A DNA stretch of 41,095 nucleotides. Source: a virus. Positions 3,859-31,910 of this stretch are shown here, piece by piece; the first letter of the stretch is position 1; the number at the start of each line of letters is the position of its first letter. The DNA is taken from the IMG/VR virus record IMGVR_UViG_3300046804_000531, positions 1 through 41,095 of that record. One strand, 5' to 3'. Position numbers and translations under genes: made by a program. The notes below the pieces were generated by a model, which saw nothing but the letters and a program-made list of their open reading frames with translations, made no database searches and was not told the DNA's origin.

Positions 3859-4309
3859 AAACTTTAGCCTTGCTGAGTTCACCAAGAGTGAGACAGCTAC
3901 ACGTAAAGGCCTTGATAACACCCCTACACCAGAGGTGATTCAGAATTTACAGAAGCTTGTGGATAACATCATCCAACCAATCAGGGAAGCTTACGGCAAA
4001 CCAATCAAGATTAACTCAGGTTATAGAGCACCAGAGGTTAATGCCTCTGTTGGTGGCTCTAAAACCTCTGACCATTGCAAAGGCCAAGCAGCTGACATTG
4101 AAATTACAGGTGTAGCCAATGGTGACTTAGCTCAATACATTGTGGACAACTACAAGTTTACACAGGTAATACTGGAGTTTTATACAGCTGGTATTCCAGA
4201 CAGTGGCTGGGTGCATGTGTCTTATGACCCTAGCAACCTCAAATGTGAAGCTTTGACAGCTGTCAAGCAAGACGGCAAGACTGTCTACCTGAAAGGCCTG
4301 CACAAATGA
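3836..4309 (+). CDS. Endolysin, peptidase M15 family, 157 aa
   Basis: It matches zinc D-Ala-D-Ala carboxypeptidase/endopeptidases of the M15_3 type: N-terminal LSKNFSLAEFTKSETA, then SGYRAPEVNASVGGSKTSDH with CKGQAADIE, carrying the first His and Asp zinc ligands, and GWVHVSY with the third His. It should cleave peptidoglycan peptide cross-links during lysis. No signal peptide is seen, so export would rely on the holins. The gene overlaps the previous one by 23 bases; a second ATG six bases downstream is also possible. Confidence 0.85.
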   Translation: MTMTQLSKNFSLAEFTKSETATRKGLDNTPTPEVIQNLQKLVDNIIQPIREAYGKPIKINSGYRAPEVNASVGGSKTSDHCKGQAADIEITGVANGDLAQYIVDNYKFTQVILEFYTAGIPDSGWVHVSYDPSNLKCEALTAVKQDGKTVYLKGLHK

Positions 4310-8418: not shown

Positions 8419-9513
8419 ATGGCAAGTGATGTTTTAACACTATTTAACATGCCCTCGTCTAGCGATGTTAGACAGGCTTATTTAGACAGTCAAATGATTA
8501 GCCCTGCTCAAATGGGTAATCAAAGCTTGTTACAACAAGTGGCTTCCTTGGGTGCTAATGCTGGTGCAGGTGTAGGCTATGCAGCCGGTAGAATGCTTGG
8601 TGGTATGGCTCCTCAAGAGGCACGTGCTAAGGGCATTGAAGATGCTATGTCTAAGGTGCAAAGCTTGGGCATTCAGGACGAAGGAGACATGTATGCTGCT
8701 TTGGCCCAAGAGCTGGGTGCTAGAGGCTTGTCTCAGGATGCTTTGCAGGCAACACAAGCTGCACGTAAGGTGAAAGCTGCACAAAGCCAGATGACCTTGG
8801 AAGCTGCTAAGACTAAGAAAGAAGAAGCCCTTGCTGCGGCTGCTGCAAGAGATAAAACTCTCTCCCCTGTTGGTAAACTGCAAGCTGATAAACAAGCTTA
8901 TATTAACGGTGGTGGTAAAGACCCAGCTGTTATCAGTGCTTATGACAAGGCCATTGCTGCTGAGGGTACACATAAGGGAACAATTATTCAGATGCCCGGT
9001 GAAGGCACTGCTAAGCTGTCTGACATCAACCCAACAGTGTCCCAGATTCGTAGCGAATTGAAGCCTTATTCTGATGCTTTTAGCACAGCTTCTCAAGGCA
9101 TTAAGCTGCTTGATAGCGGCTCTCCAAAGGCTGAGGCACAGGTGGACAGAGCTTTGGCTACATTGTCTGGTGATAAACAGCTATCACAGGTTGAAGTGAT
9201 GTCTGTTGTTAATGCAGGTACATTACCACAACGTGTTGTTGACAGTGCCACTAAGTTCTTTGCTGGTACATCTGGTAAACAATCAGTTCAAGAAAAGCGT
9301 GATGTGTTGGAAGCCTTTGCTGCCGCAGCTGCTGCTAAACACAATACAGAGCAGGCTAAGCTTGGTCGCATCTATGGCACTTCTCAGTTGTCTCCAACAC
9401 AGGTGTCTGCTGTTATTGGTGAACCACTTAAATTTACTGTCAAATCTATCGTTAATAAACCCCTTACAACTAAGAGTGGTGTAAAATATCAGATTTTAGA
9501 TGAAGGACAATAA
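8419..9513 (+). CDS. Internal virion / ejection protein, 364 aa
   Basis: Highly helical, Ala/Gln/Lys-rich: ATQAARKVKAAQSQMTLEAA followed by KTKKEEALAAAAARD is a clear coiled coil around residues 113-145. The C-terminal part (LEAFAAAAAAKHNTEQAKLG) is also helical. It lies two bases after the previous gene and shares a TAATG junction with the next, so these genes are co-translated. An internal core component is inferred from position and composition. Confidence 0.6.
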   Translation: MASDVLTLFNMPSSSDVRQAYLDSQMISPAQMGNQSLLQQVASLGANAGAGVGYAAGRMLGGMAPQEARAKGIEDAMSKVQSLGIQDEGDMYAALAQELGARGLSQDALQATQAARKVKAAQSQMTLEAAKTKKEEALAAAAARDKTLSPVGKLQADKQAYINGGGKDPAVISAYDKAIAAEGTHKGTIIQMPGEGTAKLSDINPTVSQIRSELKPYSDAFSTASQGIKLLDSGSPKAEAQVDRALATLSGDKQLSQVEVMSVVNAGTLPQRVVDSATKFFAGTSGKQSVQEKRDVLEAFAAAAAAKHNTEQAKLGRIYGTSQLSPTQVSAVIGEPLKFTVKSIVNKPLTTKSGVKYQILDEGQ

Positions 9514-12125
9514 TGGCAACATATCTCATTGAAGGCAAGAGAGTACAGGTAGACGGTCAACTTTCAGAATCAGAAATTGATGAGATTGGTGCTTCTATCC
9601 GTGCTACAGCAAAGCCTAAACAAGGAAGCATTGTACAGGACATTTTTCAGGCTGCTAAACAAGGTCTGACTAACCTTCCTTCCATTCTAACAGCAGGCTC
9701 AGCAGAAGGTCAAGGAACATTCGCTGGTGCTTTCCCTTCTCAGCCTGAGCTGGCTCCCATCTCCACTGTAGAGGGTGCTAGAAAGGCTATGGGAGTGACA
9801 CGTCAGCCTGCTACAACAGAAACTGGTAAATATGTTATGCCAATGGTGGAAGCTGTTGCTGATCCGTTGAGCTATGCCTACCCCGGTTCTATTCTCCAGA
9901 AGGCCGGCACAGCTGCCATTTCAGGTCTTGGTGGAGAAGTAGGTGGTGAACTTGGAGGAGGTCTTGAAAAGGCTATTACAGGGACAGAGACGGGTGTTGG
10001 TAGAGGCATCGGTGCTGTTACTGGTTCTGTGGGTGCTCCCCTTGCTGGTGCTCCATTCAAAGTGACAACAGGGGCTGCTGCTGATTTGTCTAAGCAGCTC
10101 TGGTCTAAATATCAAGCAGTGAAGATTGACCCAGCTGGTGCTGAGAATGCTGTAGCTGCTGGTGCTGCTAAGCGCTTATTAGAGCAAGCTGCTAAGGCTC
10201 AAGGTGCTAGTAATATTGATGACATCATCTCTGACATTAACAAGGCTTCACAGTATGTAACAGGCACTGATGCTCCTTTGTTGGTGAGCATGATTAATAA
10301 TCCTGTCATTAAAGAACAGGTTGTTCGTCTTGCTAAGACCAATCCACAATATAGAGCACAGATTCAAGCTGAGCTTGACAAGGTGGCTCAGGCCATCGAC
10401 AGCAAGGCCTCCACCATCTTTGGTGACAGATTTGCTCCAGTTACAGATACAGGTTTGAAGCTCACTAATGTAGCTAAACGTAAAGAGGCTATTAACGGCC
10501 GTTTAGAGGCCCTTACAGACCCTTTAACAGCTCCGTCTAAGGGAGACATTGGTAAGGCTGTTGAGAACCTTGTAGAGGCTAAAAAGGCTACTGTAATGAA
10601 GGAAATGTCTCCTCAATATGAAGGCCTGAAAGCTTCAGCTAGAGAAGCCAATGTGACAATGCCGGCAGAGGCTACAGAAGCCTTGTACAACTTTGTTGAG
10701 ACTAACCGCCTAAGAGACATCTTTGGCCGAGGCTCTGCTGCTGATAACAAGGTGTTGTCCATACTGCGTCCTAAAGAGACACCAATGACAGGCATTGATG
10801 CCAACATTGCTGCTCTTGAGAAGGCTGCTGGTAATGCTGCTCCAACAAACAAAGTGTTTGGTGAAATGTCTTTTGATGATGTGGACAGCTTGAAGCGTCT
10901 GATCAACGAGCAACAACGTAAGGTGAAAGACCCTTCACAGCTGCGTAAGCTGGATGTGCTTGAAGAACAGCTGGATGCTGCACGTGGTCAATATATTCCT
11001 GAATGGAGCGATAAGCTTAAAGGGCTTGATCTTCAATATTATGAGAAGGTTGGTGTGCCTTTCAGCCAAGCTCAGGGTATTAAGGACATTGACAGTGCTA
11101 AATATGCCTCACAGGTGGCTAATGTCATTGTGAAGGACAGACAAGCCCTTCGTGACTTCGTTAATGTGGCAGGCAAAGAAGGTGTTCAAATTGCTGAGAA
11201 TGCTGTCATTGCCAAGGCTTATGAAGCAGCTGTTAAGGATGGTTTGTTGTCTGGTAACAGCCTGTCAGCCTTTATTAAGAAGAACTCAGATGTTTTGAAT
11301 GAGATGGAGAAGAACGGCAGCAACATTAAACAGCTGTTGTCTGATTCTCTGTTGGATGATAGAACATTGAAAGCACAAAGAGCACGTCTTGATGTACAGG
11401 CTAAAGCAGCTGAGAAACGTATTGCTGATAACTATCTGACAAAGAACATGGATGATGGTGTGGCAATTCCTGACTATGCAACATTGCTCACAGGTGTGTT
11501 GAATACAGGCTCTACACGTAATAAGCTTGCTAAAGACTTAGCAGACCTCTCTCCAGAGGCTTCACAGGCCGTCAGAGGCTCTTTGAGAGCTGAGCTGGCT
11601 GCTAAGGCCTTGGACGACCCTAGAGGCGGTGTAGCCTTCTTGCAAGACCCTAAGAACAGAGCAGGCATTGATTCCATCATGGGAAATGGCTATCAGGAAA
11701 GCTTGATGAAAATCTCTAAGCTGTCTGACAACCTGAAGAAGGCTGATATTGAACGTCTGTCTCTTGAGCTTGAGAAGAGCAAGGTGGACTCTGTTGGTGC
11801 AAGACTTGCCCAAATGGGAGCACCCGGTTTGGATGTTCCATACATCACATCAACTATTCGTGACCGTATCTCTTCACCAATCCAAAAGGGTGTACGTTTG
11901 TTGTCTAGAGTGAACGTAGCTAGAACACAAGAGCAGTTTGACCAACAGGTTATGCAGCTTTTGACAGACCCTCAAGGGGTTAAGAAGCTTGCTAATGTTG
12001 CTCAGACTATGGACTTCACTATCAAGAATCCAGTTCAATTGGAGAAGATCATGAGCACCTTGTTTGACAGTATGCCGGCTAGTGTTTACATCGGCTTGCA
12101 AGGAGAACAGGGACCAGCTGAATAA
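9513..12125 (+). CDS. Large internal virion / ejection protein, 870 aa
   Basis: The largest gene in the window. Residues 1-30 are polar; about 130-185 is Gly/Ala-rich and hydrophobic (GTAAISGLGGEVGGELGGGL), which could insert into membrane; the remaining two-thirds is long helical coiled-coil sequence rich in Lys/Glu/Ala. No lytic transglycosylase motif is visible, unlike T7 gp16. Last gene of the block, ending just before a strong terminator. Probably part of the ejected core that forms the DNA conduit. Confidence 0.65.
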   Translation: MATYLIEGKRVQVDGQLSESEIDEIGASIRATAKPKQGSIVQDIFQAAKQGLTNLPSILTAGSAEGQGTFAGAFPSQPELAPISTVEGARKAMGVTRQPATTETGKYVMPMVEAVADPLSYAYPGSILQKAGTAAISGLGGEVGGELGGGLEKAITGTETGVGRGIGAVTGSVGAPLAGAPFKVTTGAAADLSKQLWSKYQAVKIDPAGAENAVAAGAAKRLLEQAAKAQGASNIDDIISDINKASQYVTGTDAPLLVSMINNPVIKEQVVRLAKTNPQYRAQIQAELDKVAQAIDSKASTIFGDRFAPVTDTGLKLTNVAKRKEAINGRLEALTDPLTAPSKGDIGKAVENLVEAKKATVMKEMSPQYEGLKASAREANVTMPAEATEALYNFVETNRLRDIFGRGSAADNKVLSILRPKETPMTGIDANIAALEKAAGNAAPTNKVFGEMSFDDVDSLKRLINEQQRKVKDPSQLRKLDVLEEQLDAARGQYIPEWSDKLKGLDLQYYEKVGVPFSQAQGIKDIDSAKYASQVANVIVKDRQALRDFVNVAGKEGVQIAENAVIAKAYEAAVKDGLLSGNSLSAFIKKNSDVLNEMEKNGSNIKQLLSDSLLDDRTLKAQRARLDVQAKAAEKRIADNYLTKNMDDGVAIPDYATLLTGVLNTGSTRNKLAKDLADLSPEASQAVRGSLRAELAAKALDDPRGGVAFLQDPKNRAGIDSIMGNGYQESLMKISKLSDNLKKADIERLSLELEKSKVDSVGARLAQMGAPGLDVPYITSTIRDRISSPIQKGVRLLSRVNVARTQEQFDQQVMQLLTDPQGVKKLANVAQTMDFTIKNPVQLEKIMSTLFDSMPASVYIGLQGEQGPAE

Positions 12126-12578: not shown

Positions 12579-12767
12579 TCACTCTCCTTTGTCATTATCA
12601 ACCATATAAGGCACTGAACGCACTGTAGGGAATTTCTCCTTGAATGCTTCGATTGTCATATCCCTGCCTAAGTGAACCTCAACAAAGCTAGTCCCTTCTG
12701 AGACCAGCTTTGCTTTCAGTTGCACACACGCTGGACAATTATCTTTGGTGTATACAACTAATGCCAT
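12579..12767 (-). CDS. Glutaredoxin/NrdH-like redoxin, 62 aa
   Basis: Thioredoxin-fold N-terminus LVVYTKDNCPACVQLKAKL with a CPAC redox pair (Cys10 and Cys13 region) and a TVRSVPYMV cis-proline segment. It is shorter than typical NrdH or glutaredoxin (about 75-85 aa), lacking the last helix. It overlaps the reductase stop (TAATG), so it is probably the electron donor that re-reduces the ribonucleotide reductase C-terminal cysteines. Confidence 0.8.
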   Translation of the reverse strand: MALVVYTKDNCPACVQLKAKLVSEGTSFVEVHLGRDMTIEAFKEKFPTVRSVPYMVDNDKGE

Positions 12768-14671
12768 TAGATTTCACATCCAGCTGCTGTACAAGCTAAG
12801 GTCTGTACACCTTCAACATTATCATCCACTTCAATCAGGCTGTTCCAATCAATGGTGGACGGTGTGATGGACAACAAAGCTTCATATTGCTCTTTGGTGC
12901 AATCCTCATAAGGGGCTTGTTTGTATGAGCCACCATCATAAGGCAAGAAAGAAACACCAGACATTTCATCGAAATGCTTCCATACAAAAGCACCAACCTC
13001 TGGCCATTCAGCTTCTGTCACTGAAATAGTAACTGAAGGCTTATGCTCACACCAATGACGTTGATAGGCAAGCCATAGGCGCAAGTGTTGCAGAGCTGTC
13101 AGGTCTTTACGCAACAAAGCACCTTCTGGAGCTTTCTTGGGGAATGTAAACACCACTGTCTGATCTGGCTTCATAACACAAGATTCAGCCTGTACACCAG
13201 CCTCAATGAGGTGTTGTGTCAAGGGGTCTTTCTTGTCTCCTCGTACTCTTCGATAATAATACTCAGCATGACGGGCATGAATGCCACTAGCACTATCAGT
13301 AAGCTGACTGACAGTCCCGCTAGGCTTAACACAAGTAATGGCAGCAGCAGGAGGAATAGCAAGCTGCTCAGACATAAGCGCATTAGCTGCAATGCATACA
13401 GTTTTAAGTTCATTCAACACTTTCTCAAGACGTGCGTCTTCTGGGTTGTTCAACAAAGCGTTATCAAGAATACCTGTCATTGAAACACCCAACAAACGCT
13501 CTTCCTCTGTATTCTTCTGCCACACCTTACGCAGGTAGGGGAAGTGTGTCAATGTGCTCTGGAATGTACCCAGAATGGATGCCAAACGTGCCTTACGTTT
13601 CAGGGTGTCCACTGTGTCATCAGCACGGACAATGATTTCAGACAAGTTACAGAATTGATATGGACGTAAGATGATCTCTGAGCATGGGTTTGTACCAAAT
13701 TCAAAGTCTGGATTACGTCTGCCGTTTTGTTTCACAACATGCTTAGCTGCTTCTCGGTTGAAGATGCCTCGCTCACCACTCTTGCTTTCATACAAGCTGA
13801 GCCATTCCTGCATGAAAATACCAACATCAGGACGCTCTGTATAGCAGGCACTGTTGTTAGCCAAAGCACGTTGACCATTCTTCTCCCACCATGCACCACT
13901 CTTGGCATGACGCATACGGTCATCAGACAGGTTGGACAAGCTAATCATGGCTGAACGGCGTACACCGCCTACAACAACAACCTCACCAATCTTACACATA
14001 ATGTCATGGCATTCAAGGCTGTTCAACTTACGGCCTTTAGCACCCTTAAACACATTACATACAAACTGGAACAACTCAACCAAAGGCTCAGGACCAGAGG
14101 CACGACCACCGAAGGTTTTTAGACGTGCGCCTTTAGGACGAACTTTAGACACATCCCACTTAGGGACTTCGCCTGCATACAACAAGGCAATCACTTGACG
14201 TAGAGCCTTAGCCCAGCCTTCTTTGCTGTCAGACACCACAACAGTTGTGTTGCTATCAAACAGCTCTTCTGGAATGTCAGGCAGCTTCTGGATGCTTTGA
14301 CGCTCCACAGAGAAGCCCACACCAGTGCCACACAAGAGAATGTACATAGCCTCATCAAATGCCTTAGCATCGTCAATAGGCAAATAGCTGCAATTGTAGC
14401 CAGCTGTGTTGTCACGCTCCAAGGCTTTGCCGGCTGTCATCAAGCTGCGCATAGAGGGCATCACCTCCATGTTAACAACAGCACTCTCCAGTTCCTTACG
14501 CAAAGTGTCGCTAAGCGTGTAGTCGTTGTTCTTCTTCAGATGATTTGCCATAAAGTCGAAATAACGAGCTACTGTCTCTGGCCAATCCTCACGGCGTTGT
14601 TGATCATCCAAGTAACGTGCATATCGGCTCTTGGCGATGTATTGCTCGTAACTACCCATATATTGTGTCAT
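12767..14671 (-). CDS. nrdJ: Class II (B12-dependent) ribonucleoside triphosphate reductase, 634 aa
   Basis: It reduces ribonucleotides to deoxyribonucleotides using adenosylcobalamin. It fits the monomeric RTPR type: GYNCSYLP (Cys94), FGTNPCSEI with thiyl Cys330 and Glu332, FCNLSEI with Cys341, and a C-terminal CTAAGC pair (Cys627/Cys632). The 11-residue gap between Cys330 and Cys341 and the CxxxxC tail match the Lactobacillus leichmannii enzyme (Cys408/419, Cys731/736). At 634 aa it is shorter than that enzyme (739 aa). It sits with the redoxin and ThyX in a nucleotide-supply set. ATGA overlap with the 51-aa gene upstream. Confidence 0.93.
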   Translation of the reverse strand: MTQYMGSYEQYIAKSRYARYLDDQQRREDWPETVARYFDFMANHLKKNNDYTLSDTLRKELESAVVNMEVMPSMRSLMTAGKALERDNTAGYNCSYLPIDDAKAFDEAMYILLCGTGVGFSVERQSIQKLPDIPEELFDSNTTVVVSDSKEGWAKALRQVIALLYAGEVPKWDVSKVRPKGARLKTFGGRASGPEPLVELFQFVCNVFKGAKGRKLNSLECHDIMCKIGEVVVVGGVRRSAMISLSNLSDDRMRHAKSGAWWEKNGQRALANNSACYTERPDVGIFMQEWLSLYESKSGERGIFNREAAKHVVKQNGRRNPDFEFGTNPCSEIILRPYQFCNLSEIIVRADDTVDTLKRKARLASILGTFQSTLTHFPYLRKVWQKNTEEERLLGVSMTGILDNALLNNPEDARLEKVLNELKTVCIAANALMSEQLAIPPAAAITCVKPSGTVSQLTDSASGIHARHAEYYYRRVRGDKKDPLTQHLIEAGVQAESCVMKPDQTVVFTFPKKAPEGALLRKDLTALQHLRLWLAYQRHWCEHKPSVTISVTEAEWPEVGAFVWKHFDEMSGVSFLPYDGGSYKQAPYEDCTKEQYEALLSITPSTIDWNSLIEVDDNVEGVQTLACTAAGCEI

Positions 14672-16086: not shown

Positions 16087-16163
16087 TGGCCTACCCTAGT
16101 GGATTCGAACCACTGACCTACAGTTTAGAAGACTGTTGCTCTATCCAACTGAGCTAAGGGTAG
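16087..16163 (-). tRNA. tRNA-Arg (anticodon UCU)
   Basis: Cloverleaf on the minus strand: acceptor CTACCCT (16163-16157) pairs with AGGGTAG (16097-16091); D stem GCTC/GAGC; anticodon stem ACAGT/ACTGT around loop CTTCTAA, anticodon TCT; T arm AGTGG-TTCGAAT-CCACT; discriminator G and an encoded CCA (16089-16087). It decodes AGA/AGG, codons that the phage genes use often, so it probably supplements a rare host tRNA. Confidence 0.95.
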
Positions 16164-16168
16164 ATGTG

Positions 16169-16447
16169 TTATTCGTAATTATCCCAAGATGTTAAAACAA
16201 AAGACAGTTTATAAAAAGGATCACCATCAATTGTTCGTTTATCGGCATGAAAGCCACCAGTAGCTGTACTACCTGCTTCATGTGGGATTAAACATTTCAA
16301 AAGACTTCTAGCTGTTCTACGAAGCTCTCCAATAGAAGGATATGCAGAAGGCATTCCCCATTTCCATTCTAAAAGCTCCATTGCTTTATGAACCTTTTGA
16401 AAATTAAATTCATCAAGAATGTCTTCAATGATTTCTTCTTCAGTCAT
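16169..16447 (-). CDS. Hypothetical protein, 92 aa
   Basis: Acidic N-terminal helix (MTEEEIIEDILDEFNFQKVH), then KAMELLEWKWG, SIGELRRTARSLLK and C-terminal GGFHADKR...FVLTSWDNYE. No catalytic motif recognised. Its start overlaps the thyX stop by 8 bases. Confidence 0.7.
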   Translation of the reverse strand: MTEEEIIEDILDEFNFQKVHKAMELLEWKWGMPSAYPSIGELRRTARSLLKCLIPHEAGSTATGGFHADKRTIDGDPFYKLSFVLTSWDNYE

Positions 16448-17066
16448 ACATCTCCTTGATTGCTGGAAACTGTTCCCATATTATATCACGACATTGCTCT
16501 GCAACTTCTCTATGTTCTTTCTGAGTAGATACATCAGTACGTATATCAACATAATGAAGCCAAGAACGTAGAGTGCCTTGCATGTACATCTTGCTTTGTG
16601 TCATGCCTTCTGGGAGCAGCTTACGGGCTGTCTCTTTAGCAATGCCTTTAGCCAATGCACTTTCATACATAAACTGAGCTTCTTGCAACACACGTCTTTG
16701 AGCACCTTCCCACCAATAAGCCAGATAACGGTCTTCAGTTTCAATGCTGTTTTGTCTGTTCTTCTGGTCTTGCAAGCGAGGCTCACTCATCTCAAAGCCT
16801 TGGGCTACAGCATAGCGTTGGCTAAACTCCTGAAAGCTGAAGCTTCGATGACGCAAGATTTGACGGGCAATGTCACGTGTGGTGTTGATTTCCATACAGA
16901 CATTAACCATCTCAAAAGGCGACCAATGCTTGTTCTTAATAAGGTACGAAAGTAGTTTCCCCGCAGATGCATGGTTGTTCTGGTTTTCCGGATTTGATAC
17001 ACGGGCCATATACGCAATCTTTTGCTCCGCTTCCGGTGTTACCCACACAAGGCTCACTTGGCTCAT
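16440..17066 (-). CDS. thyX: Flavin-dependent thymidylate synthase ThyX, 208 aa
   Basis: It makes dTMP from dUMP using FAD, NADPH and methylene-folate. The signature RHRSFSFQEFSQRY matches the ThyX motif RHRxxSxNExSxRY-type loop; further conserved parts are NHASAGKLLSYLIKNKHWSP-FE and ARKLLPEG near the C-terminus. The ATG at 17066 (MSQVSLVWVTPEAE) is chosen since AAGAAGGAAAACAGT lies just upstream; the frame opens further at a TTG. It overlaps the upstream small gene by 131 bases. Confidence 0.93.
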   Translation of the reverse strand: MSQVSLVWVTPEAEQKIAYMARVSNPENQNNHASAGKLLSYLIKNKHWSPFEMVNVCMEINTTRDIARQILRHRSFSFQEFSQRYAVAQGFEMSEPRLQDQKNRQNSIETEDRYLAYWWEGAQRRVLQEAQFMYESALAKGIAKETARKLLPEGMTQSKMYMQGTLRSWLHYVDIRTDVSTQKEHREVAEQCRDIIWEQFPAIKEMYD

Positions 17067-17205
17067 ACTGTTTTCCTTCTTCAATTGCTTTCTTTAACAC
17101 TTCAATAAGCCCTAGATTTACCAGAGCTTGTACTTCCAGAGGAGAGATGGACAACGTGAAATCTGCACTGCCATCCTCATTTTCTTTGACTAAGTTTAAA
17201 TTCAT
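16936..17205 (-). CDS. Hypothetical Cys-rich-tailed protein, 89 aa
   Basis: The N-terminal 50 residues (MNLNLVKENEDGSADFTLSI, then SPLEVQALVNLGLIEVLKKA) read like a normal small protein. The last about 44 residues are encoded in the same DNA as the thyX start in another frame and contain five Cys (EPCVGN, KDCVYGPC, QPCIC). Either the Cys tail is functional (perhaps metal binding) or the gene extends by chance through an overlap. Unknown function. Confidence 0.6.
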   Translation of the reverse strand: MNLNLVKENEDGSADFTLSISPLEVQALVNLGLIEVLKKAIEEGKQYEPSEPCVGNTGSGAKDCVYGPCIKSGKPEQPCICGETTFVPY

Positions 17206-19619: not shown

Positions 19620-20010
19620 CAGTATGTTCCTTTATGTAGTCTGCTGCTTTTATTAAAAGCTCTGGATTATCTTGAAAGAGCCCTAAACCTCTATTACAGT
19701 TATGACAGAGAAGCTTCCTAACTTTTCCTGTTTTATGACAGTGATCCACAGCAAGTTTTTCATTGTGATTATTCTTACCAATTAAGAATCCTTCATCCTT
19801 ACAGATGTAACATTTATTGTCTTGCTTTTCTTTCATTTCAGCAAGAGTCAATTCAGTTATTCCATAATTTCTTTTGTAGTAAGCATTCTTTCCTTTACAT
19901 TCAGGCTTGCAATATACATTACAAGGGTTTGTGGGGATAAATGTTTCACCACATGTCTTACATTTTTTTTCTTTAAAATACCCTTGAGGATACTTGTTAG
20001 TGTGTTTCAT
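19609..20010 (-). CDS. Recombination endonuclease VII, 133 aa
   Basis: A zinc element near the N-terminus (CKTCGETF with Cys30, 34 and 38) is followed by the endonuclease VII core: YGITELTLAEMKEKQ, CYIC (67-70), LAVDHCHKTGKVRKLLCHNC (87-105) and GLGLFQDNPELLIKAADYIK. These resolve branched DNA before packaging. Overlaps the polymerase end by 14 bases. Confidence 0.92.
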   Translation of the reverse strand: MKHTNKYPQGYFKEKKCKTCGETFIPTNPCNVYCKPECKGKNAYYKRNYGITELTLAEMKEKQDNKCYICKDEGFLIGKNNHNEKLAVDHCHKTGKVRKLLCHNCNRGLGLFQDNPELLIKAADYIKEHTDGQ

Positions 20011-21811
20011 ACCAGTTTACCCCATAATTAGCTTCTGCGTCTACTGGACATCTGAATTGTAGCATAGTTCCTGCATCCCTTGCGGCTTGTACAACAATAT
20101 TTCCAACTTTCTCTGCGTAAGTAGCAGATGTCTCAAGCTGTACTTCATCATGAACCCAAGCAACAAGTTTATAAGGAATTTTACTCTTTATCAGAGCATT
20201 TGTGAAGTTAACTATCCATTGCTTAGCAACAATAGCCCCTGCACTTTGAAGAAGACTATTCAAAGCAGCATGTTCACTGCGAATCCAAATCTTCCTGCCA
20301 TCAATGGCCGGTATTTTACCAAGAGCAGCACAAGCATCAACTTTAACCTTCAATGCCTTCAATGAAGGTGTGTTGTTCATAAAGTTATCAACTAACTTTT
20401 TACCTTCTTTTTCAGAACCTCCTACAGTTGCCCCAACCTTAGCACTTCCAGCACCATACAGCACAGAATAGGTAAGTGTTTTACTCAAGTTTCTAGCATC
20501 TTTATGTTCTTTGCTATAATTTTTAACTGTACCCATAGGAACGAGCCCAAAAGCTTGTGTATTCTTCCAATGCACATCGCCTTCTAACAGTTCCTTTTGC
20601 CATTCAGCATCTTGCATGTAGTGAGATAGACATCGAAGCTCAATACCAGCCAAGTCAACACCTACCAACACATTACCCTTATCCACTGTCCACACCTCAC
20701 GACATTCCTTACCATAAGGGCTGGATGTGTTAGGGATTTGGGCCATATTTGGAGAACTATGTGTAGCCCTACCTGTTACTGCCCCATTGGTAATGACACG
20801 TCCGTGTACCCTACCATCTTCTCTCACCTCTTCTAGCCAGCTAGACACCTGTGCTACACGTTTCTGTAACATTAGATATTCAAGCAAAGCCTTAGCTTCT
20901 GGCAGATCAATCTTCTCTAGCACCTTCTCATCAACAATGATGGAACCTTTGTCTGTTGTCTTGGAAAACTTAACACCAAGTCCTTGCAACCTCTCAGCAA
21001 TCTGTTGTCGAGAGCCGGGATTGAAAGGAATAGAGCGTGTCTTCATAGGACCAGCAACTGCCTCATCGGCCTTAGAAGCCTTCATACCTGCCTCTTTGAG
21101 CATAGCCTTAAGCTCCCCCTTAGTTTCTGCTTGAAGGCCCTCTACGGCCCAATAAGCAGGTTTCTTCATCTCTTCAATGACAGGAGGGAAGATAGTTTGT
21201 AATTGATTTTCAATATCAACCATCTTACCTGATAGAGTCGCCAATAAGCCCTGAGCTTTCGGAATGTCAAGTTTAAAACCATGTTCATGTTGTTTGTTTA
21301 GGATGATTGCTACATCGTGTTCAAGCTTCCTGCATTGCTCAGAGAACTTCTCTTGATCAAGCATCTTGTCAATGAGCTTTTCAACTTTAACCAACACAGC
21401 TACGTCTTGTTGGCAATAGTCAAACATCAAGGGCAGGTCTGGATTGTCATAGCAGTTACCTTCTAGGCCAAGCTCTTTCCAAAGGTCTTCATAGTCAATC
21501 TTGCTCTCTCCAACTCTTTCGCCCCATGCTTTCAGACTGTGGCCTCCTTCGATATTTGGATTGTACAGACGAGACAAAATCAAGGTATCTTTCGCTTTCT
21601 TCGCTGGTATCATCACTCCCCAGCACTTCTTTAGAACTGGCCCATCGAAGCCTATCAAGTTGTGAGCGATCACTGTTTCTGAGTTTGCGATTAAGGGTGT
21701 GAGTGTATCCGGCTTTGTGTGACATACATATCCATTGGTTTCATCATACGTGAAACAACACCAAATCTTTTTGTGATCTGTTGTTGTCTCAATGTCGAGG
21801 TAGAGCTTCAC
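19997..21811 (-). CDS. Family A DNA polymerase with 3'-5' exonuclease, 604 aa
   Basis: Replicative polymerase of T7 type. Exonuclease motifs: YLDIETT (Asp6, Glu8), HNLIGFD (50-56) and YCQQD (132-136). Polymerase motif A GVDLAGIELRCLSHYM (Asp386, Glu391); motif B RNLSKTLTYSVLYGAG with Arg440, Lys444, Tyr448 and Tyr452; motif C WVHDEVQLE (554-556). Tyr448 sits at the E. coli Phe762 position, as in T7. At 604 aa it is shorter than T7 gp5 (704) and I see no clear thioredoxin-binding insertion. ATGA overlap with the upstream gene. Confidence 0.96.
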   Translation of the reverse strand: MKLYLDIETTTDHKKIWCCFTYDETNGYVCHTKPDTLTPLIANSETVIAHNLIGFDGPVLKKCWGVMIPAKKAKDTLILSRLYNPNIEGGHSLKAWGERVGESKIDYEDLWKELGLEGNCYDNPDLPLMFDYCQQDVAVLVKVEKLIDKMLDQEKFSEQCRKLEHDVAIILNKQHEHGFKLDIPKAQGLLATLSGKMVDIENQLQTIFPPVIEEMKKPAYWAVEGLQAETKGELKAMLKEAGMKASKADEAVAGPMKTRSIPFNPGSRQQIAERLQGLGVKFSKTTDKGSIIVDEKVLEKIDLPEAKALLEYLMLQKRVAQVSSWLEEVREDGRVHGRVITNGAVTGRATHSSPNMAQIPNTSSPYGKECREVWTVDKGNVLVGVDLAGIELRCLSHYMQDAEWQKELLEGDVHWKNTQAFGLVPMGTVKNYSKEHKDARNLSKTLTYSVLYGAGSAKVGATVGGSEKEGKKLVDNFMNNTPSLKALKVKVDACAALGKIPAIDGRKIWIRSEHAALNSLLQSAGAIVAKQWIVNFTNALIKSKIPYKLVAWVHDEVQLETSATYAEKVGNIVVQAARDAGTMLQFRCPVDAEANYGVNWYETH

Positions 21812-23258: not shown

Positions 23259-23410
23259 TTCTTTTTCTTTCTTAAGACAAGCAGCTTGGTTGTCACCTTC
23301 ACATACTTGTTTCCATCTGGATCAACCCTTTCCACCCCATGCATTGTCTTTGCAGGAAAATTAGAGGGGAAAGGCCATGTTGTGTCTTCTTTAAAGGGTT
23401 TCTTCGGCAC
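23255..23410 (-). CDS. Small basic protein with GTG start, 51 aa
   Basis: Reading from GTG at 23410 gives VPKKPFKEDTTWPFPSNFPA then KTMHGVERVDPDGNKYVKVT and a Lys-rich end (LRKKKK). It overlaps the primase-helicase end by 20 bases and shares ATGA with the next gene; a GGAGG lies about ten bases ahead of the GTG. Not recognised; the tight fit makes it credible. Confidence 0.55.
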   Translation of the reverse strand: MPKKPFKEDTTWPFPSNFPAKTMHGVERVDPDGNKYVKVTTKLLVLRKKKK

Positions 23411-24986
23411 GTTCAATCATCCTCCCCGTGTGTTTATTGTACAGCAGCTTGCAGGCAGGACCTGTAATGCCACTGAAACGGTTCTTAAGCACTCTCACCT
23501 TGGTGGTGTTACGCTCTGTAATGTCTTCATGCTGTCCATTACGTTCCAAACCAATCACCATGTCTGACAACTGTGCAATGGAGCCTGAGCCACGAAGCTG
23601 AGCCAAGGATGTAGCAGCTCCCTCTTCATGGCCTTTGTCGCTTGGACGCTTCAAATGGCTCACAATGATGAGAGCAATGTTTGTCTCTTGCACCAACATA
23701 CGCAGCTTAGTCATAATTTCATCAATGGCTTTACGTTCATCACCACCCTCTTGTGCTGAGACAACAATGGAAATGTGGTCAAGAAACACATACTTACATC
23801 CCATGCCCTTGGCCATGAAACGCACACGGTTGAGAATGTTATCAATGGATGTGGAACCAAAATGATCAAACAAAAAGAGACGGCCTGTACCGAGGGTAGC
23901 ATCAAAGGCTTCTTTGCGTTGCTCTGTTGTAACATCAACATCAGGCAAATGTAAGGGAACATTAGCACACACGCTCATTATGGACAAAGCTGTTTTCTTC
24001 ACGCTTTCCTCCAAGAACATCAAGCCAATGTTGTCTTCTGTCTTTTGTAGGATGTGCCATACAATTTCACGCAATGTCTGGCTCTTACCAAGACCTGAGC
24101 CTGCTGTAATTGTCACCAGCTCACCAGAACGAATGCCATATGTCAGCTCATTAAGACCAACCCATGGGTAGTCACAGTCTGCCTTCACCATAGGTGCTGA
24201 CACCTCTTCCCACAGAGAAGAACCTGCCACAATGCCGTCTGGAACAGCTGTCTCAGCTCCCCACCAACGGTCAATGAATTCCTTTTCCTTGCCGGCCATA
24301 AGGAAGTCACAGCCATCTTTATATCCGTCAATACCCTTGAACACCTTGGCTTTGCCGGAAAACACAGAGGCCACAGCATTAGCCGCCTGCTTGCCTACAT
24401 CATCATTATCAAAACAAATGACAATGTTCTCAAAGGAAGACAGCCATTCATAATGCTCTTTGCAGTCTTTGACAGCCCCACCGGCTCCGTTACGCACAGA
24501 CACCACAGGCCATTTAGAGCCAAGCATTTGATAGACAGCTAGAGCATCATACTCCCCTTCCACCACGGTGACATACTTGCCTCCCTTGGTGAACAGCTGT
24601 TGGCCAAACAAGCCACTACCTTTCCACTCACCGGCTGTGCTGAAAGCCTTCTCTGCAATGCTTCGTTTCTTGGCAGCTACAAGCTTGCCGTCCTTGAAAT
24701 AGGGAAAGAATACATTACTAGTGTCAGCAACTACCCCATACTTCTCCACAGTGGCCTTGGCAATGCGTCTAGAGGCAATTGATGGGCTTGGGAGGCCGGA
24801 CATAGAGGCACGTAGGCTGTCAATGGCTTCGCTGTAGTCTTTTGTTTCCATGAATGTTTCTAGCATGTTGTTGCTCTGTGTTAATGTGTGGCAAACAAAA
24901 CAGAAGGTGCTTCCGTCTTCGTTGATTGATAAACCATCACTGCTTCCGCAGCTCGGGCATGGTTGGTGTGTCTTCACGAACGCCAT
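23391..24986 (-). CDS. Bifunctional primase-helicase (T7 gp4-like), 531 aa
   Basis: Synthesises primers and unwinds the fork. Zinc-binding domain CPSC (10-13) and CFVC (29-32); TOPRIM acidic residues in VVEGEYDALAVY (Glu143) and VICFDNDDVGKQAA (Asp193/195); RecA-like helicase with Walker A GSGLGKS (296-302), catalytic Glu in MFLEES (325-327) and Walker B YVFLDH (399-404). Length is close to T7 gp4A (566). Upstream of the pyrophosphohydrolase and polymerase in one transcript. Confidence 0.95.
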   Translation of the reverse strand: MAFVKTHQPCPSCGSSDGLSINEDGSTFCFVCHTLTQSNNMLETFMETKDYSEAIDSLRASMSGLPSPSIASRRIAKATVEKYGVVADTSNVFFPYFKDGKLVAAKKRSIAEKAFSTAGEWKGSGLFGQQLFTKGGKYVTVVEGEYDALAVYQMLGSKWPVVSVRNGAGGAVKDCKEHYEWLSSFENIVICFDNDDVGKQAANAVASVFSGKAKVFKGIDGYKDGCDFLMAGKEKEFIDRWWGAETAVPDGIVAGSSLWEEVSAPMVKADCDYPWVGLNELTYGIRSGELVTITAGSGLGKSQTLREIVWHILQKTEDNIGLMFLEESVKKTALSIMSVCANVPLHLPDVDVTTEQRKEAFDATLGTGRLFLFDHFGSTSIDNILNRVRFMAKGMGCKYVFLDHISIVVSAQEGGDERKAIDEIMTKLRMLVQETNIALIIVSHLKRPSDKGHEEGAATSLAQLRGSGSIAQLSDMVIGLERNGQHEDITERNTTKVRVLKNRFSGITGPACKLLYNKHTGRMIERAEETL

Positions 24987-28447: not shown

Positions 28448-29161
28448 TCAGTTAATGACAAAACCCGTAGTGTCACGTTTTGCGGCCCCTTTTGCATATA
28501 GGCCCACAATGACGCCTTGAGCGTCTAAATGACGCACGTCACTATCATCCCCTGAAATTACGGGCATGCCTTGAAAAACCACGGGAATGTTAGCCAATGA
28601 ACGGAAAACCACGGCCATGCGCATGCCCTTTTCTTTTGCTTTGTCCACATAAGGGGCGAAGGTAGAAACACCACTATAGCTAAATGTTAGATCATAATTT
28701 GCGGGAATGCCTTTGCGGCCGGCGTCCTTGGTGTAGTCATAGAATTGCACATCCGGAAAAGCTTCGAATATTGTAGCGCCTTCGAATGGAATGGTTTCCC
28801 AGCGAATATCAGACGTGCCATTGAGGCGCACCAATGGCTTAAGCCCCTTTTTCTCGGCCTTTTTGATCAATGCCTTAATATTCTTGAATAACGTGGCCAT
28901 GAATGCTTCTCTATCTTCAAAGAAAAACAAGGTTTTATCAATGCGAGATTGTTGCACATTATTGAATGCACCACGGCCGGCACTGTATAAACAAGCCTTA
29001 GCACATCCGGCCTTCTCGGCCATGGCGCACGTATTGTATTTTGTAACCGTGGCCGGTGCTAAGTATAGAATGCCGGTTAGATAGCCAAGCTTTTCCCCTT
29101 TTACGGTTTTACTATCTACAGAGACAGAGAGAAGATTTTTAGAGCGCTTGAATGTGGACAT
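28448..29161 (-). CDS. GP88-like (DUF7227-type) protein, 237 aa
   Basis: Resembles the mycobacteriophage 'gene product 88' family: LGYLTGILYLAPATVTKYNT, Cys-rich CAMAEKAGCAKACLYSAGRG, then NNVQQSRIDKTLFFFEDREA, LVRLNGTSDIRWE and FYDYTKD. The three closely spaced Cys (about 47, 54, 58) could bind a metal or cluster. Function is not established. It is the largest gene in the AAGGGG cassette and is preceded by CAAGGGGTTTACT. Confidence 0.75.
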   Translation of the reverse strand: MSTFKRSKNLLSVSVDSKTVKGEKLGYLTGILYLAPATVTKYNTCAMAEKAGCAKACLYSAGRGAFNNVQQSRIDKTLFFFEDREAFMATLFKNIKALIKKAEKKGLKPLVRLNGTSDIRWETIPFEGATIFEAFPDVQFYDYTKDAGRKGIPANYDLTFSYSGVSTFAPYVDKAKEKGMRMAVVFRSLANIPVVFQGMPVISGDDSDVRHLDAQGVIVGLYAKGAAKRDTTGFVIN

Positions 29162-29298: not shown

Positions 29299-29453
29299 TG
29301 TGAACCCCTTAAGGTTTGTTTGTGATGCTTGATATATTGCAAGCACCATGCCAGCCCTGAAATGTTAGCCTTTTAGTATTAGTTTTATATGGCTAATCAA
29401 TACTATTTAGGCCATAATCCTATAACATTAAACCTTTTCTATTCATTATCAAT

Positions 29454-29505
29454 GCACCAACAATGTGCAACAATGGCCTATAAGCACCAACAATGTGCAA
29501 CAATG
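29454..29505. repeat. Two 22-bp direct repeats (iterons)
   Basis: Identical 22-bp copies at 29454-29475 and 29484-29505, beginning GCACCAACAATG, 30 bp apart start to start. TGCACCAA at 29506-29513 is a third partial copy. Inside, GTGCAACAATG recurs. Spacing near three helical turns suits binding of an initiator protein on one DNA face. Confidence 0.9.
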
Positions 29506-29524
29506 TGCACCAATTTGGTTGCTC

Positions 29525-29533
29525 TGTGGATAA
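29525..29533 (-). promoter_or_regulatory. DnaA box 1
   Basis: TGTGGATAA is the exact complement of the TTATCCACA consensus. A degenerate copy, TGTGGAAAT, lies at 29568-29576. Confidence 0.75.
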
Positions 29534-29610
29534 CTATGTAGTTGTGCACAGGTTGTTAACAGCTGCCTGTGGAAATCTGTTGGTGTTAGTGGTTTCCCTT
29601 ATGCTTTGCA

Positions 29611-29650
29611 GGTGCTAATAGGGTGCTAATAGGGTGCTAATAGGGTGCTA
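29611..29650. repeat. Tandem 11-bp repeats
   Basis: GGTGCTAATAG occurs three times back to back (29611-29621, 29622-29632, 29633-29643), followed by a partial GGTGCTA. The unit is one helical turn long, as in origin iterons. Confidence 0.9.
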
Positions 29651-29661
29651 CCTAAGCCCTC

Positions 29662-29925
29662 ATGCTCTGCCCTGTGGATAACTCTGTGGATAACTTTAAT
29701 GACCAGTCAGTCAGTAAGCCAAATGCGAATGGTTATCATTATCAGGCCCGGGGGAGGAGAACAAGGGTAGTAAACTTTATAGGTACCCACCGAGACACAA
29801 AAAAGAGGAAAACTGGCAAAAAAGAAAGCATTAAGTTAGTGAGTGCTCACTTAGCTAACTCGTTGATTTTAAACAGAAAAGCCACCAAAGCATTAAAAAC
29901 AATTGGGGACAGGTTAAATGTCTGA
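29662..29925 (+). CDS. Doubtful basic ORF, 87 aa
   Basis: The open frame begins inside the DnaA-box region (MLCPVDNSVDNF comes from the box sequence), without a ribosome site. The later part, RGRRTRVVNFIGTHRDTKKR then SAHLANSLILNRKATKALKT, is basic and protein-like, and GGGGGAGGAG lies upstream of it but without a suitable start codon. It could be a small DNA-binding protein with a misplaced start, or non-coding. A palindrome, AGTGAG-TG-CTCACT, lies at 29838-29851. Confidence 0.3.
   Translation: MLCPVDNSVDNFNDQSVSKPNANGYHYQARGRRTRVVNFIGTHRDTKKRKTGKKESIKLVSAHLANSLILNRKATKALKTIGDRLNV
29673..29693 (-). promoter_or_regulatory. DnaA boxes 2 and 3
   Basis: TGTGGATAA at 29673-29681 and again at 29685-29693, same orientation, 12 bp apart. 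Both match the strong DnaA box consensus perfectly. Confidence 0.75.
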
Positions 29926-29956: not shown

Positions 29957-29985
29957 TTGACAAGACTAAAAAAGTATGCTATAAT
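29957..29985 (+). promoter_or_regulatory. Consensus sigma-70 promoter P2 (terminase operon)
   Basis: TTGACA (29957-29962), 17 bases, TATAAT (29980-29985): perfect consensus. It reads into the terminase genes through a leader of about 270 bases. Confidence 0.9.
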
Positions 29986-29993
29986 GAATACAT

Positions 29994-30265
29994 AGTATGT
30001 AATTAAGGAAGACATACTAAGGGACTACTAAGGATGGTCTTCTACTTTAAAGGCAGCCCACTAAGGCATAGAAGTTTAATTAACATAATAAGAAAATTAT
30101 CATTATAATGTTAAACTTACTAACTCCTAGGAGTACATTAAAGTAGAACATATAAGCTTTGCATTCTTGACTGAATGACATAGAAGCTTGCCTGAATGTC
30201 TATGTATGTTGTATAGATGTTTGTTGTTGTTATAAACACATTGTTGTTGTTGAATATAGGCCCAT
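29994..30265 (+). promoter_or_regulatory. Long 5' leader of the terminase operon
   Basis: No gene of note in about 270 bases. An inverted repeat AGTATGT (29994-30000) / ACATACT (30012-30018) lies near the transcript start. TTAACATAAT (30080-30089), shared with two other leaders, lies between larger arms AAGTTTAA (30072-30079) and TTAAACTT (30111-30118). Near the end are GTTGTTGTT runs (30220-30252) and no strong ribosome site. A 24-codon frame from 30034 is possible but unsupported. Confidence 0.55.
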
Positions 30266-30664
30266 ATGGACACCCTAAACACTGAAATTAAAAAAAGAGG
30301 AAGAGGCAGACCCCGTAAGGGAGAAATTGTTGCCAAGAAGAAGCCCGGTAAAATAGGCAGACCATTAGGGGAAGCTGGCATCATTGCTGAATATAGAGCA
30401 AGGATGTTGAACAGCCCTAAGAGCAAACTTGTCTTAGAGAAGGTGTTTGATGCTGCTTTGGAGGATGGTCATCCCCATCAGGCAGCTGCTTGGAAGTTGG
30501 TTTTAGACCGTATTGTCCCAGCCAGTGCCTTTGACCCACAAAAGGCTGGAGGGGCTAAACCAATGGTAAATATCACCATCACAGGGGTTGGAGGAGAAAC
30601 CACCATTGTTGGTGAGAACGACACATTTGATAATGTAGAGGATGTGGAGTTTAAGGATGTCTGA
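30266..30664 (+). CDS. Terminase small subunit-like protein, 132 aa
   Basis: It lies directly before the large terminase and overlaps it by 8 bases. The N-terminus has AT-hook-like DNA-binding elements (KKRGRGRPRKGEIVAKKKPG, GKIGRPLGE), followed by a helical region (AEYRARMLNSPKSKLVLEKV) and an acidic beta C-terminus. Position and DNA-binding features suggest the packaging recognition subunit; sequence alone is not decisive. Confidence 0.65.
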   Translation: MDTLNTEIKKRGRGRPRKGEIVAKKKPGKIGRPLGEAGIIAEYRARMLNSPKSKLVLEKVFDAALEDGHPHQAAAWKLVLDRIVPASAFDPQKAGGAKPMVNITITGVGGETTIVGENDTFDNVEDVEFKDV

Positions 30665-31910
30665 GCTTAAGATTGAACTCCTCCCTTGGCAGCAGAAGGT
30701 GTGGAATGATGAGACACGTTTTAAAGTGGTTGCTGCTGGACGTAGAACAGGCAAGTCTAGACTAGCTGCCTATTTGCTCATTGTTAACGCCTTACAGGCC
30801 AATAAGGGGCATGTATTTTATGTTGCTCCTACACAGGGGCAGGCAAGAGACATTATGTGGCAAACCCTGCTTGAGGTGGGCCATAGTGTCATTACAGGTA
30901 GTCACATTAACAACTTACAGATTAAGCTGGTTAATGGGGCCACCATCAGTCTTAAAGGGGCTGATAGACCAGAGACAATGCGTGGTGTTTCGTTGAAGTT
31001 TCTGGTTATGGACGAATATGCAGACATGAAACCAGAGGTGTGGGAACAGATTTTACGTCCTGCTCTGGCTGACCAAAAGGGCTGTGCTTTGTTTATCGGA
31101 ACCCCTATGGGCCGTAATCATTTCTATGACCTCTATCAACATGCCTGCAAGGGAGAAGATCCAACATTCAAGGGATGGCATTTCACCTCTTATGACAACC
31201 CCATTCTAGACCCTAAAGAAATTGAAGCAGCCAAGAAGAGCATGTCTAGCTTTGCGTTTAGACAAGAATTTATGGCTTCATTTGAAGCACAGGGTGGTAA
31301 TCTATTCAAAGACGAATGGATTAAGTTTGATGAGGAAGAGCCGAAGAATGGTGACTATTACATTGCTTGTGACTTAGCCGGCTTTGCAGACGAGAGCAAG
31401 GGAAGCAAGAGCAAGAGACTAGACAACAGCTCCTTTGCCATTGTTAAGACCAACGAGCAAGGCTGGTGGGTGAAAGACATTGTTTATGGCAGATGGACTG
31501 TTGAAGAGACAGCCCGTAAGCTATTCACCCTCGTTAAGAAATATGAGCCTATGGCTGTAGGCATTGAGCGTGGCATTGCTAAGCAGGCCGTTATGCCCTA
31601 CCTGACAGACATCATGCGTAAGAACCAGACATTCTTTAGAGTGGAAGAGCTTACACACGGAAACAAGAAAAAGAGTGATCGTATTGTTTGGGCCTTACAG
31701 GGGCGCTTTGAACACGGTCAAATTGTGTTGAACAAAGGGGAATGGAATGCTGAGTTCTTAGATGAGCTGTTCCAGTTTCCCAACCCAATGGTGCATGATG
31801 ACTTGATTGACTCGTTGTCATACATTGAACAGCTTTCTAAACAGGCATATGTGTCTGAATGGGAAGAGGAAGAAGAATATGAACCTATGGACGCTTTTAG
31901 CGGATATTGA
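30657..31910 (+). CDS. Terminase large subunit, 417 aa
   Basis: Packaging motor and nuclease. Walker A GRRTGKS (28-34), Walker B LKFLVMDEYAD (Asp119/Glu120), then RNase H-like nuclease residues YIACDLAGF (Asp239), VGIERG (Glu304) and HDDLIDS (Asp381/382). ATG at 30657 is preferred over 30642 because GGAG lies at normal spacing. Compact compared with T7 gp19 (586 aa), closer to other 420-490 aa terminases. Confidence 0.95.
   Translation: MSELKIELLPWQQKVWNDETRFKVVAAGRRTGKSRLAAYLLIVNALQANKGHVFYVAPTQGQARDIMWQTLLEVGHSVITGSHINNLQIKLVNGATISLKGADRPETMRGVSLKFLVMDEYADMKPEVWEQILRPALADQKGCALFIGTPMGRNHFYDLYQHACKGEDPTFKGWHFTSYDNPILDPKEIEAAKKSMSSFAFRQEFMASFEAQGGNLFKDEWIKFDEEEPKNGDYYIACDLAGFADESKGSKSKRLDNSSFAIVKTNEQGWWVKDIVYGRWTVEETARKLFTLVKKYEPMAVGIERGIAKQAVMPYLTDIMRKNQTFFRVEELTHGNKKKSDRIVWALQGRFEHGQIVLNKGEWNAEFLDELFQFPNPMVHDDLIDSLSYIEQLSKQAYVSEWEEEEEYEPMDAFSGY

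Follow-up and report, generated by a model that had tools for sequence, protein, structure and literature searches.

Helicases of the T7 gp4 type load without the host DnaB/DnaC route, and DnaA acts as a helper at plasmid origins of the P1, F and pSC101 type. To our knowledge, the start of replication in HMO-2011-like phages with neither an RNA polymerase nor a recognised initiator has not been established. The open-access part of the literature yielded a single lytic phage with software-predicted DnaA boxes, Pseudomonas phage vB_PseuGesM_254, whose origin was predicted with Ori-Finder (PMC11512268), and no paper in that part connected HMO-2011-type phages with DnaA. Here we describe a phage locus whose phased and conserved array of DnaA boxes offers a concrete answer that can be tested: the phage would hijack the host initiator, and its DNA synthesis would thereby be coupled to the cell cycle of the host.

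The window, by which we mean the whole stretch of DNA analyzed, consists of one virus record of 41,095 bases without nucleotide similarity to named phages. A 0.97-kb intergenic gap separates two divergent arms, with GP88 leftwards and the putative TerS and TerL rightwards, and all genes of the window point away from about 29 kb. On the minus strand, the left arm (12.8-29.2 kb) carries genes for a ribonucleotide reductase, a phosphoesterase, ThyX, an HNH nuclease, a 5'-3' exonuclease, endonuclease VII, a family A polymerase, a MazG-like protein, a T7-type primase-helicase and GP88, while the right arm carries the terminase, portal, capsid and tail proteins. The features considered below are:

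19997-21811, minus strand: family A DNA polymerase (PolA), by family match
23391-24986, minus strand: T7-type fused primase-helicase (phrog_239, DnaB_C, Toprim, Zn ribbon)
28448-29161, minus strand: GP88-family protein, by family match; the first gene of appreciable size in the left arm
29357-29456, no strand: AT-rich stretch, candidate unwinding element
29453-29505, plus strand: two 22-bp repeats sharing the dyad [TA]GCAC-N7-GTGCA, possible target of a second DNA-binding protein acting as a dimer
29525-29533, plus strand: DnaA box 1, exact TGTGGATAA, its position kept in the related loci L008, L009 and L016 (alignment)
29611-29650, plus strand: tandem 11-mers GGTGCTAATAG, three full copies (29611-29643) and a truncated fourth
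29673-29681, plus strand: DnaA box 2, exact TGTGGATAA, left half of the double DnaA box
29685-29693, plus strand: DnaA box 3, exact TGTGGATAA, right half of the double DnaA box
29673-29696, plus strand: 24-mer TGTGGATAACTCTGTGGATAACTT spanning the double box, identical to an oriC-type sequence of many bacteria
29747-29759, plus strand: G-tract CCCGGGGGAGGAG, left half of a bipartite element, conserved in relatives
29783-29805, plus strand: GTACCCACCGAGACACAAAAAAG, right half of the bipartite element (consensus GTACCC-N5-ATACAAAAAAG)
29957-29985, plus strand: sigma-70-like promoter of the rightward arm (12/12, extended -10), conserved in the related locus L002
30266-30664, plus strand: putative small terminase (TerS), first right-arm gene, assigned by position alone and without a family match
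30642-31910, plus strand: terminase large subunit (TerL), right arm, by family match

The original prediction had placed a DnaA-box origin at a divergent gene junction in a phage with its own polymerase and primase-helicase and no recognised initiator. Its description of the locus holds in most respects. The junction is divergent, lying between GP88 on the minus strand and the first rightward ORF at 30266; PolA and the fused primase-helicase are encoded; and the three exact boxes are present above shuffle expectation. The three 11-bp tandem repeats are likewise there, to which we add the partial fourth copy, and only three 100-bp windows of the genome are less stable than the AT-rich stretch. 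The two 22-bp repeats (29454-29475 and 29484-29505) are identical copies as described, but the term iterons is only partly apt, as both contain the dyad [TA]GCACCAACAATGTGCA, which box-less relatives also carry.

Several other elements of the window were recorded. A B12-dependent (class II) ribonucleotide reductase (12767-14671) and ThyX (16440-17084) form a nucleotide-synthesis block in this 41-kb phage, and a tRNA-Arg (TCT) lies on the minus strand inside the left arm (16087-16163). A right-arm protein of 870 aa (9513-12125) is without any PHROG match. Downstream of the strong promoter, the first rightward gene is preceded by a long leader (30043-30149) with the inverted repeat tctacttta ... 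taaagtaga, possibly a regulatory leader. Rfam detected no riboswitch or known RNA in the junction gap, its single match being a tRNA elsewhere.

No DnaA gene was detected in 18 records, comprising that of the window and near-full-length relatives, with positive controls; a phage-encoded DnaA system was accordingly rejected (0 of 18 records). No Rep-like or other initiator was recognised among the phage proteins, several left-arm proteins being without a family. A single-subunit RNA polymerase was likewise not recognised among the proteins scanned, and an origin of the T7 type, which relies on promoters for a phage RNA polymerase, was set aside on this ground.

Boxes 2 and 3 are in the same orientation and separated by a 3-bp gap, forming a double DnaA box. 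The window holds four copies of TGTGGATAA, three of them within 169 bases at the junction and the sole other at 3958, against a chance expectation of 0.35 per window; none of 100 dinucleotide-preserving shuffles of the whole 41 kb reached four. The 24-mer TGTGGATAACTCTGTGGATAACTT across the double box was found in at least 117 bacterial genome stretches (chance expectation far below 1), and in 48 of 116 tested bacterial loci a DnaA-type gene lies within 1.5 kb of it. These 48 loci make up the largest nearby protein cluster, in which Pfam identified each of three tested members as DnaA, and the next clusters are DnaN (18 loci) and YidC-type proteins (17 loci). Genes for DnaN and YidC-type proteins are typical neighbors of oriC. 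In E. coli, DnaA in vivo prefers box pairs 2-3 bp apart (PMC11317965). Judged from these sequence features, host DnaA very probably binds the boxes of the window.

The published rule for an unwinding module with DnaA-trios is BUS (PMC8287927), and such trios are not found in 15% of bacterial genomes. By this rule, none of the three boxes has a run of three trios in the 16 bp on its expected side, and random sequence scores equally well. The suggestion that the 11-mer repeats contain DnaA-trios was rejected, since their pattern fails the published rule. The AT-rich stretch is not adjacent to the boxes, lying about 70 bp from box 1 and more than 200 bp from the double box. Two properties of oriC-type regions are found in the window: a cluster of consensus boxes above chance, and distances and orientations that would allow DnaA to bind cooperatively. 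The region appears to work like a DnaA-responsive origin; the box cluster and its spacing are of the oriC kind, but the trios are lacking, the unwinding element is a candidate and initiation is a prediction, and we do not call it an oriC.

To follow the boxes across relatives, which were collected via GP88 and TerL and not via the boxes themselves, we surveyed TerL-related loci. At least two exact boxes lie within 400 bp upstream of TerL in 19 of 76 such loci, and 300 permuted 9-mers reach at most one locus; when the TGTGNATAA form is allowed, 22 of the 76 loci qualify upstream and none does downstream. No 9-mer is present at least twice in more of the 37 non-redundant upstream regions than TGTGGATAA (7 of 37), and in near-complete relatives one cluster holds most or all of its copies. 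The spacings of same-strand boxes (40 dereplicated) group at 11, 21-22, 32-33, 42-43 and 52-55 bp, with a period of 10.6 bp (R 0.70), and none of 20,000 random sets matches the value at 10.5 bp. Such helical phasing is expected if a protein oligomer assembles on one face of the helix. Tandem-box scans of IMG/VR recovered a relative of the window TerL in 36 of 185 loci among the matches listed. A chance cluster of a common 9-mer might be invoked, as the motif is short and AT-rich gaps are permissive, but the shuffles, the 7 of 37 upstream regions, the spacing period and the 19 of 76 TerL loci exclude it, and we regard its probability as negligible. The comparison supports the reading of the boxes as selected, helically phased sites of the bacterial oriC kind.

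The distribution of the boxes is patchy. At least two boxes occur in 3 of 3 loci with TerL identity above 90%, 1 of 28 at 77-90%, 13 of 33 at 70-77% and 5 of 12 at 48-60%, and in G007 the primase-helicase is 70% identical and there are no DnaA boxes at all. These phages provide natural box-plus and box-minus pairs with the same replisome. What most relatives have in common, including the box-less ones, is the bipartite element upstream of the terminase genes and to the right of the boxes: a G-tract, about 50 bp, and GTACCC-N5-ATACAAAAAAG, with near-constant spacing in 35 dereplicated loci. In the window it spans 29747-29805, outside the interval first proposed for the origin (29376-29693). The last 11-mer copy is part of a block, AATAGGTGCTACATAGCCCCTCAC, that is conserved in the alignment of relatives. 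The TGCAC-N-GTGCA dyad is also enriched upstream of TerL in box-less relatives, and its strict form occurs 10 times in 150 kb upstream of TerL versus twice in 399 kb downstream. The GTACCC..ACAAAAAAG element is present as a single copy in the window, and its reading as a phage-specific promoter was rejected for that reason.

Because close relatives with the same replisome lack the boxes and keep the neighboring element, the view that the boxes are themselves the origin is weakened. The strongest alternative is an origin of the plasmid type, at which a small phage initiator acting on the TGCAC-N-GTGCA repeats or on GTACCC..ACAAAAAAG does the main work and box-bound DnaA assists. Such origins classically combine repeats, an AT-rich stretch and DnaA boxes, retention of the dyad and the bipartite element in box-less relatives would explain the loss of boxes, and the left-arm proteins without a family leave room for an initiator. 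Yet none was recognised, Rep-like or other, and no candidate gene is linked to the sites; we consider this arrangement rather unlikely.

The bipartite element is possibly an origin core or a genome terminus. If the latter, the terminase would cut concatemers at the G-tract/ACAAAAAAG element to give direct terminal repeats, and the boxes there would be unrelated to initiation. The position of the element directly upstream of the terminase genes is in keeping with this, as is an excess of contig ends within 400 bp of it (29 versus 11 expected, P 5e-6). In addition, the near-complete relative G011 (L605/L606, 36,338 bp) terminates in an exact direct repeat of 221 bp, within which lie seven DnaA boxes. 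On the other side, the contig ends scatter across hundreds of bases, repeats are another cause of breaks in assemblies, several near-complete contigs read through the element, and a packaging site leaves the helical phasing of the boxes unexplained; this explanation is decidedly improbable. A cohesive-end (cos) reading of the G-tract was rejected, since contig ends are not stacked at one base. G011 also carries three further boxes, which form another cluster about 2 kb to the left of those in its terminal repeat.

DnaA boxes can also serve ends other than initiation. In E. coli, double boxes upstream of purH, polA and mutH/DARS2 function in regulation or DnaA control (PMC11317965), and chromosomal boxes titrate DnaA (PMC12371093). 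The phage boxes might similarly titrate host DnaA and halt host initiation, or couple phage transcription to DnaA-ATP, without forming an origin. The larger arrays of some relatives would suit such a sink: one locus carries as many as 11 boxes next to the G-tract, and one record totals 17 when its terminal repeat is counted twice. The three boxes of the window, however, are too few for titration before the phage replicates; the strong rightward promoter lies 264 bp downstream of the last box, and the promoter scan found no good promoter overlapping the boxes. The array moreover stays beside the G-tract element, and a role purely as a sink or regulator seems quite unlikely.

Limnohabitans phage DC31, a 76-kb phage with a cultured host, carries a noncoding gap close to its GP88 gene in which five exact DnaA boxes crowd into about 120 bp. 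In DC31, L029, L040, L047 and L298, boxes face outward on both sides of the palindrome GTCTTATATAAGAC (or ACTCTTATATAAGAC), their distances from it being nearly constant, and in L320 the palindrome has two boxes on one side. The palindrome sites are L029:9458, L047:9709, L040:1083, L298:3062, L320:1229, L171:20269 and L097:182-255, the last with three copies at 30-bp spacing; the 14-mer would be expected 0.03 times in the bases searched. In box-less relatives, the same AT-rich palindrome lies 20-98 bases to the left of the G-tract, and the palindrome is not found in the window. These arrangements point to a shared set of origin-like parts that may be combined differently among phages.

The cumulative GC skew of the window has its minimum at about 29 kb, as had been predicted for an origin there, but this gives no independent support, as the position coincides with the switch in gene strand. 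In DC31 the skew minimum (35 kb) is again at the strand switch, and the boxes, at 20.3 kb, lie 15 kb away inside a co-oriented block. Because the DC31 minimum is at the strand switch and not at the boxes, skew in these genomes appears to reflect gene strand and not replication, and it was rejected as origin evidence.

The original prediction had further proposed that host DnaA may open the origin. The selected and phased boxes of the oriC type favor this part of the claim, whereas the box-less relatives tell against boxes as the origin itself. Our preferred reading, which we hold to be evenly poised, is that of a composite phage origin at the junction: its DnaA-responsive half would recruit host DnaA, after which the phage primase-helicase would load. 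Host DnaA would bind the array of one single and one double box, and a small DnaA oligomer would bend or melt the flanking DNA. The fused primase-helicase could then load on the exposed strand with host DnaB/DnaC unneeded, and PolA would extend. The G-tract/GTACCC..ACAAAAAAG element and the TGCAC-N-GTGCA dyads would form the lineage-wide part, presumably bound by a phage protein. Taken separately, initiation of replication at the junction is somewhat probable, and its dependence on DnaA is plausible, if a shade short of an even chance. More tentatively, a widespread aquatic phage lineage with a self-contained T7/PolA-like replisome may fire via host DnaA, using a module that is gained, lost and exchanged between unrelated phages, DC31 included. 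If so, phage replication would be tied to the replication-licensing state of the host.

In comparison with oriC of E. coli and other bacteria, the locus shares consensus boxes, a same-orientation pair with a 3-bp gap, helical phasing, a nearby AT-rich stretch and the 24-mer found near dnaA in many bacteria. It differs in having three boxes only, in lacking DnaA-trios, in the distance of its AT-rich stretch from the double box, in adjoining terminase and GP88 genes instead of dnaA, and in being served by a phage replisome. P1 oriR and the F and pSC101 origins likewise bring together repeats, an AT-rich stretch and DnaA boxes; in the window, by contrast, no Rep gene was found, the repeats are dyads common to box-less relatives, and polymerase and primase-helicase are supplied by the phage. 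T7-type phages share the family A polymerase and the fused primase-helicase, whereas the window has a host-type sigma-70 promoter and DnaA boxes and no recognised single-subunit RNA polymerase among the proteins scanned. The arms of HTVC115P diverge in the same way, one carrying GP88 and replication genes and the other the terminase, and the primase-helicase is up to 55% identical to those of HMO-2011/HTVC103P-type podoviruses of marine bacteria, but HTVC115P, HTVC103P and HMO-2011 have neither a DnaA-box cluster nor the bipartite element. DC31 resembles the window in its GP88, which is 60% identical, and in a DnaA-box cluster in a noncoding gap, and differs in size and genome plan, with boxes inverted around ACTCTTATATAAGAC and no divergent junction. 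The origin of vB_PseuGesM_254 is a software prediction in a single genome, whereas the array described here was tested by its conservation and spacing among relatives.
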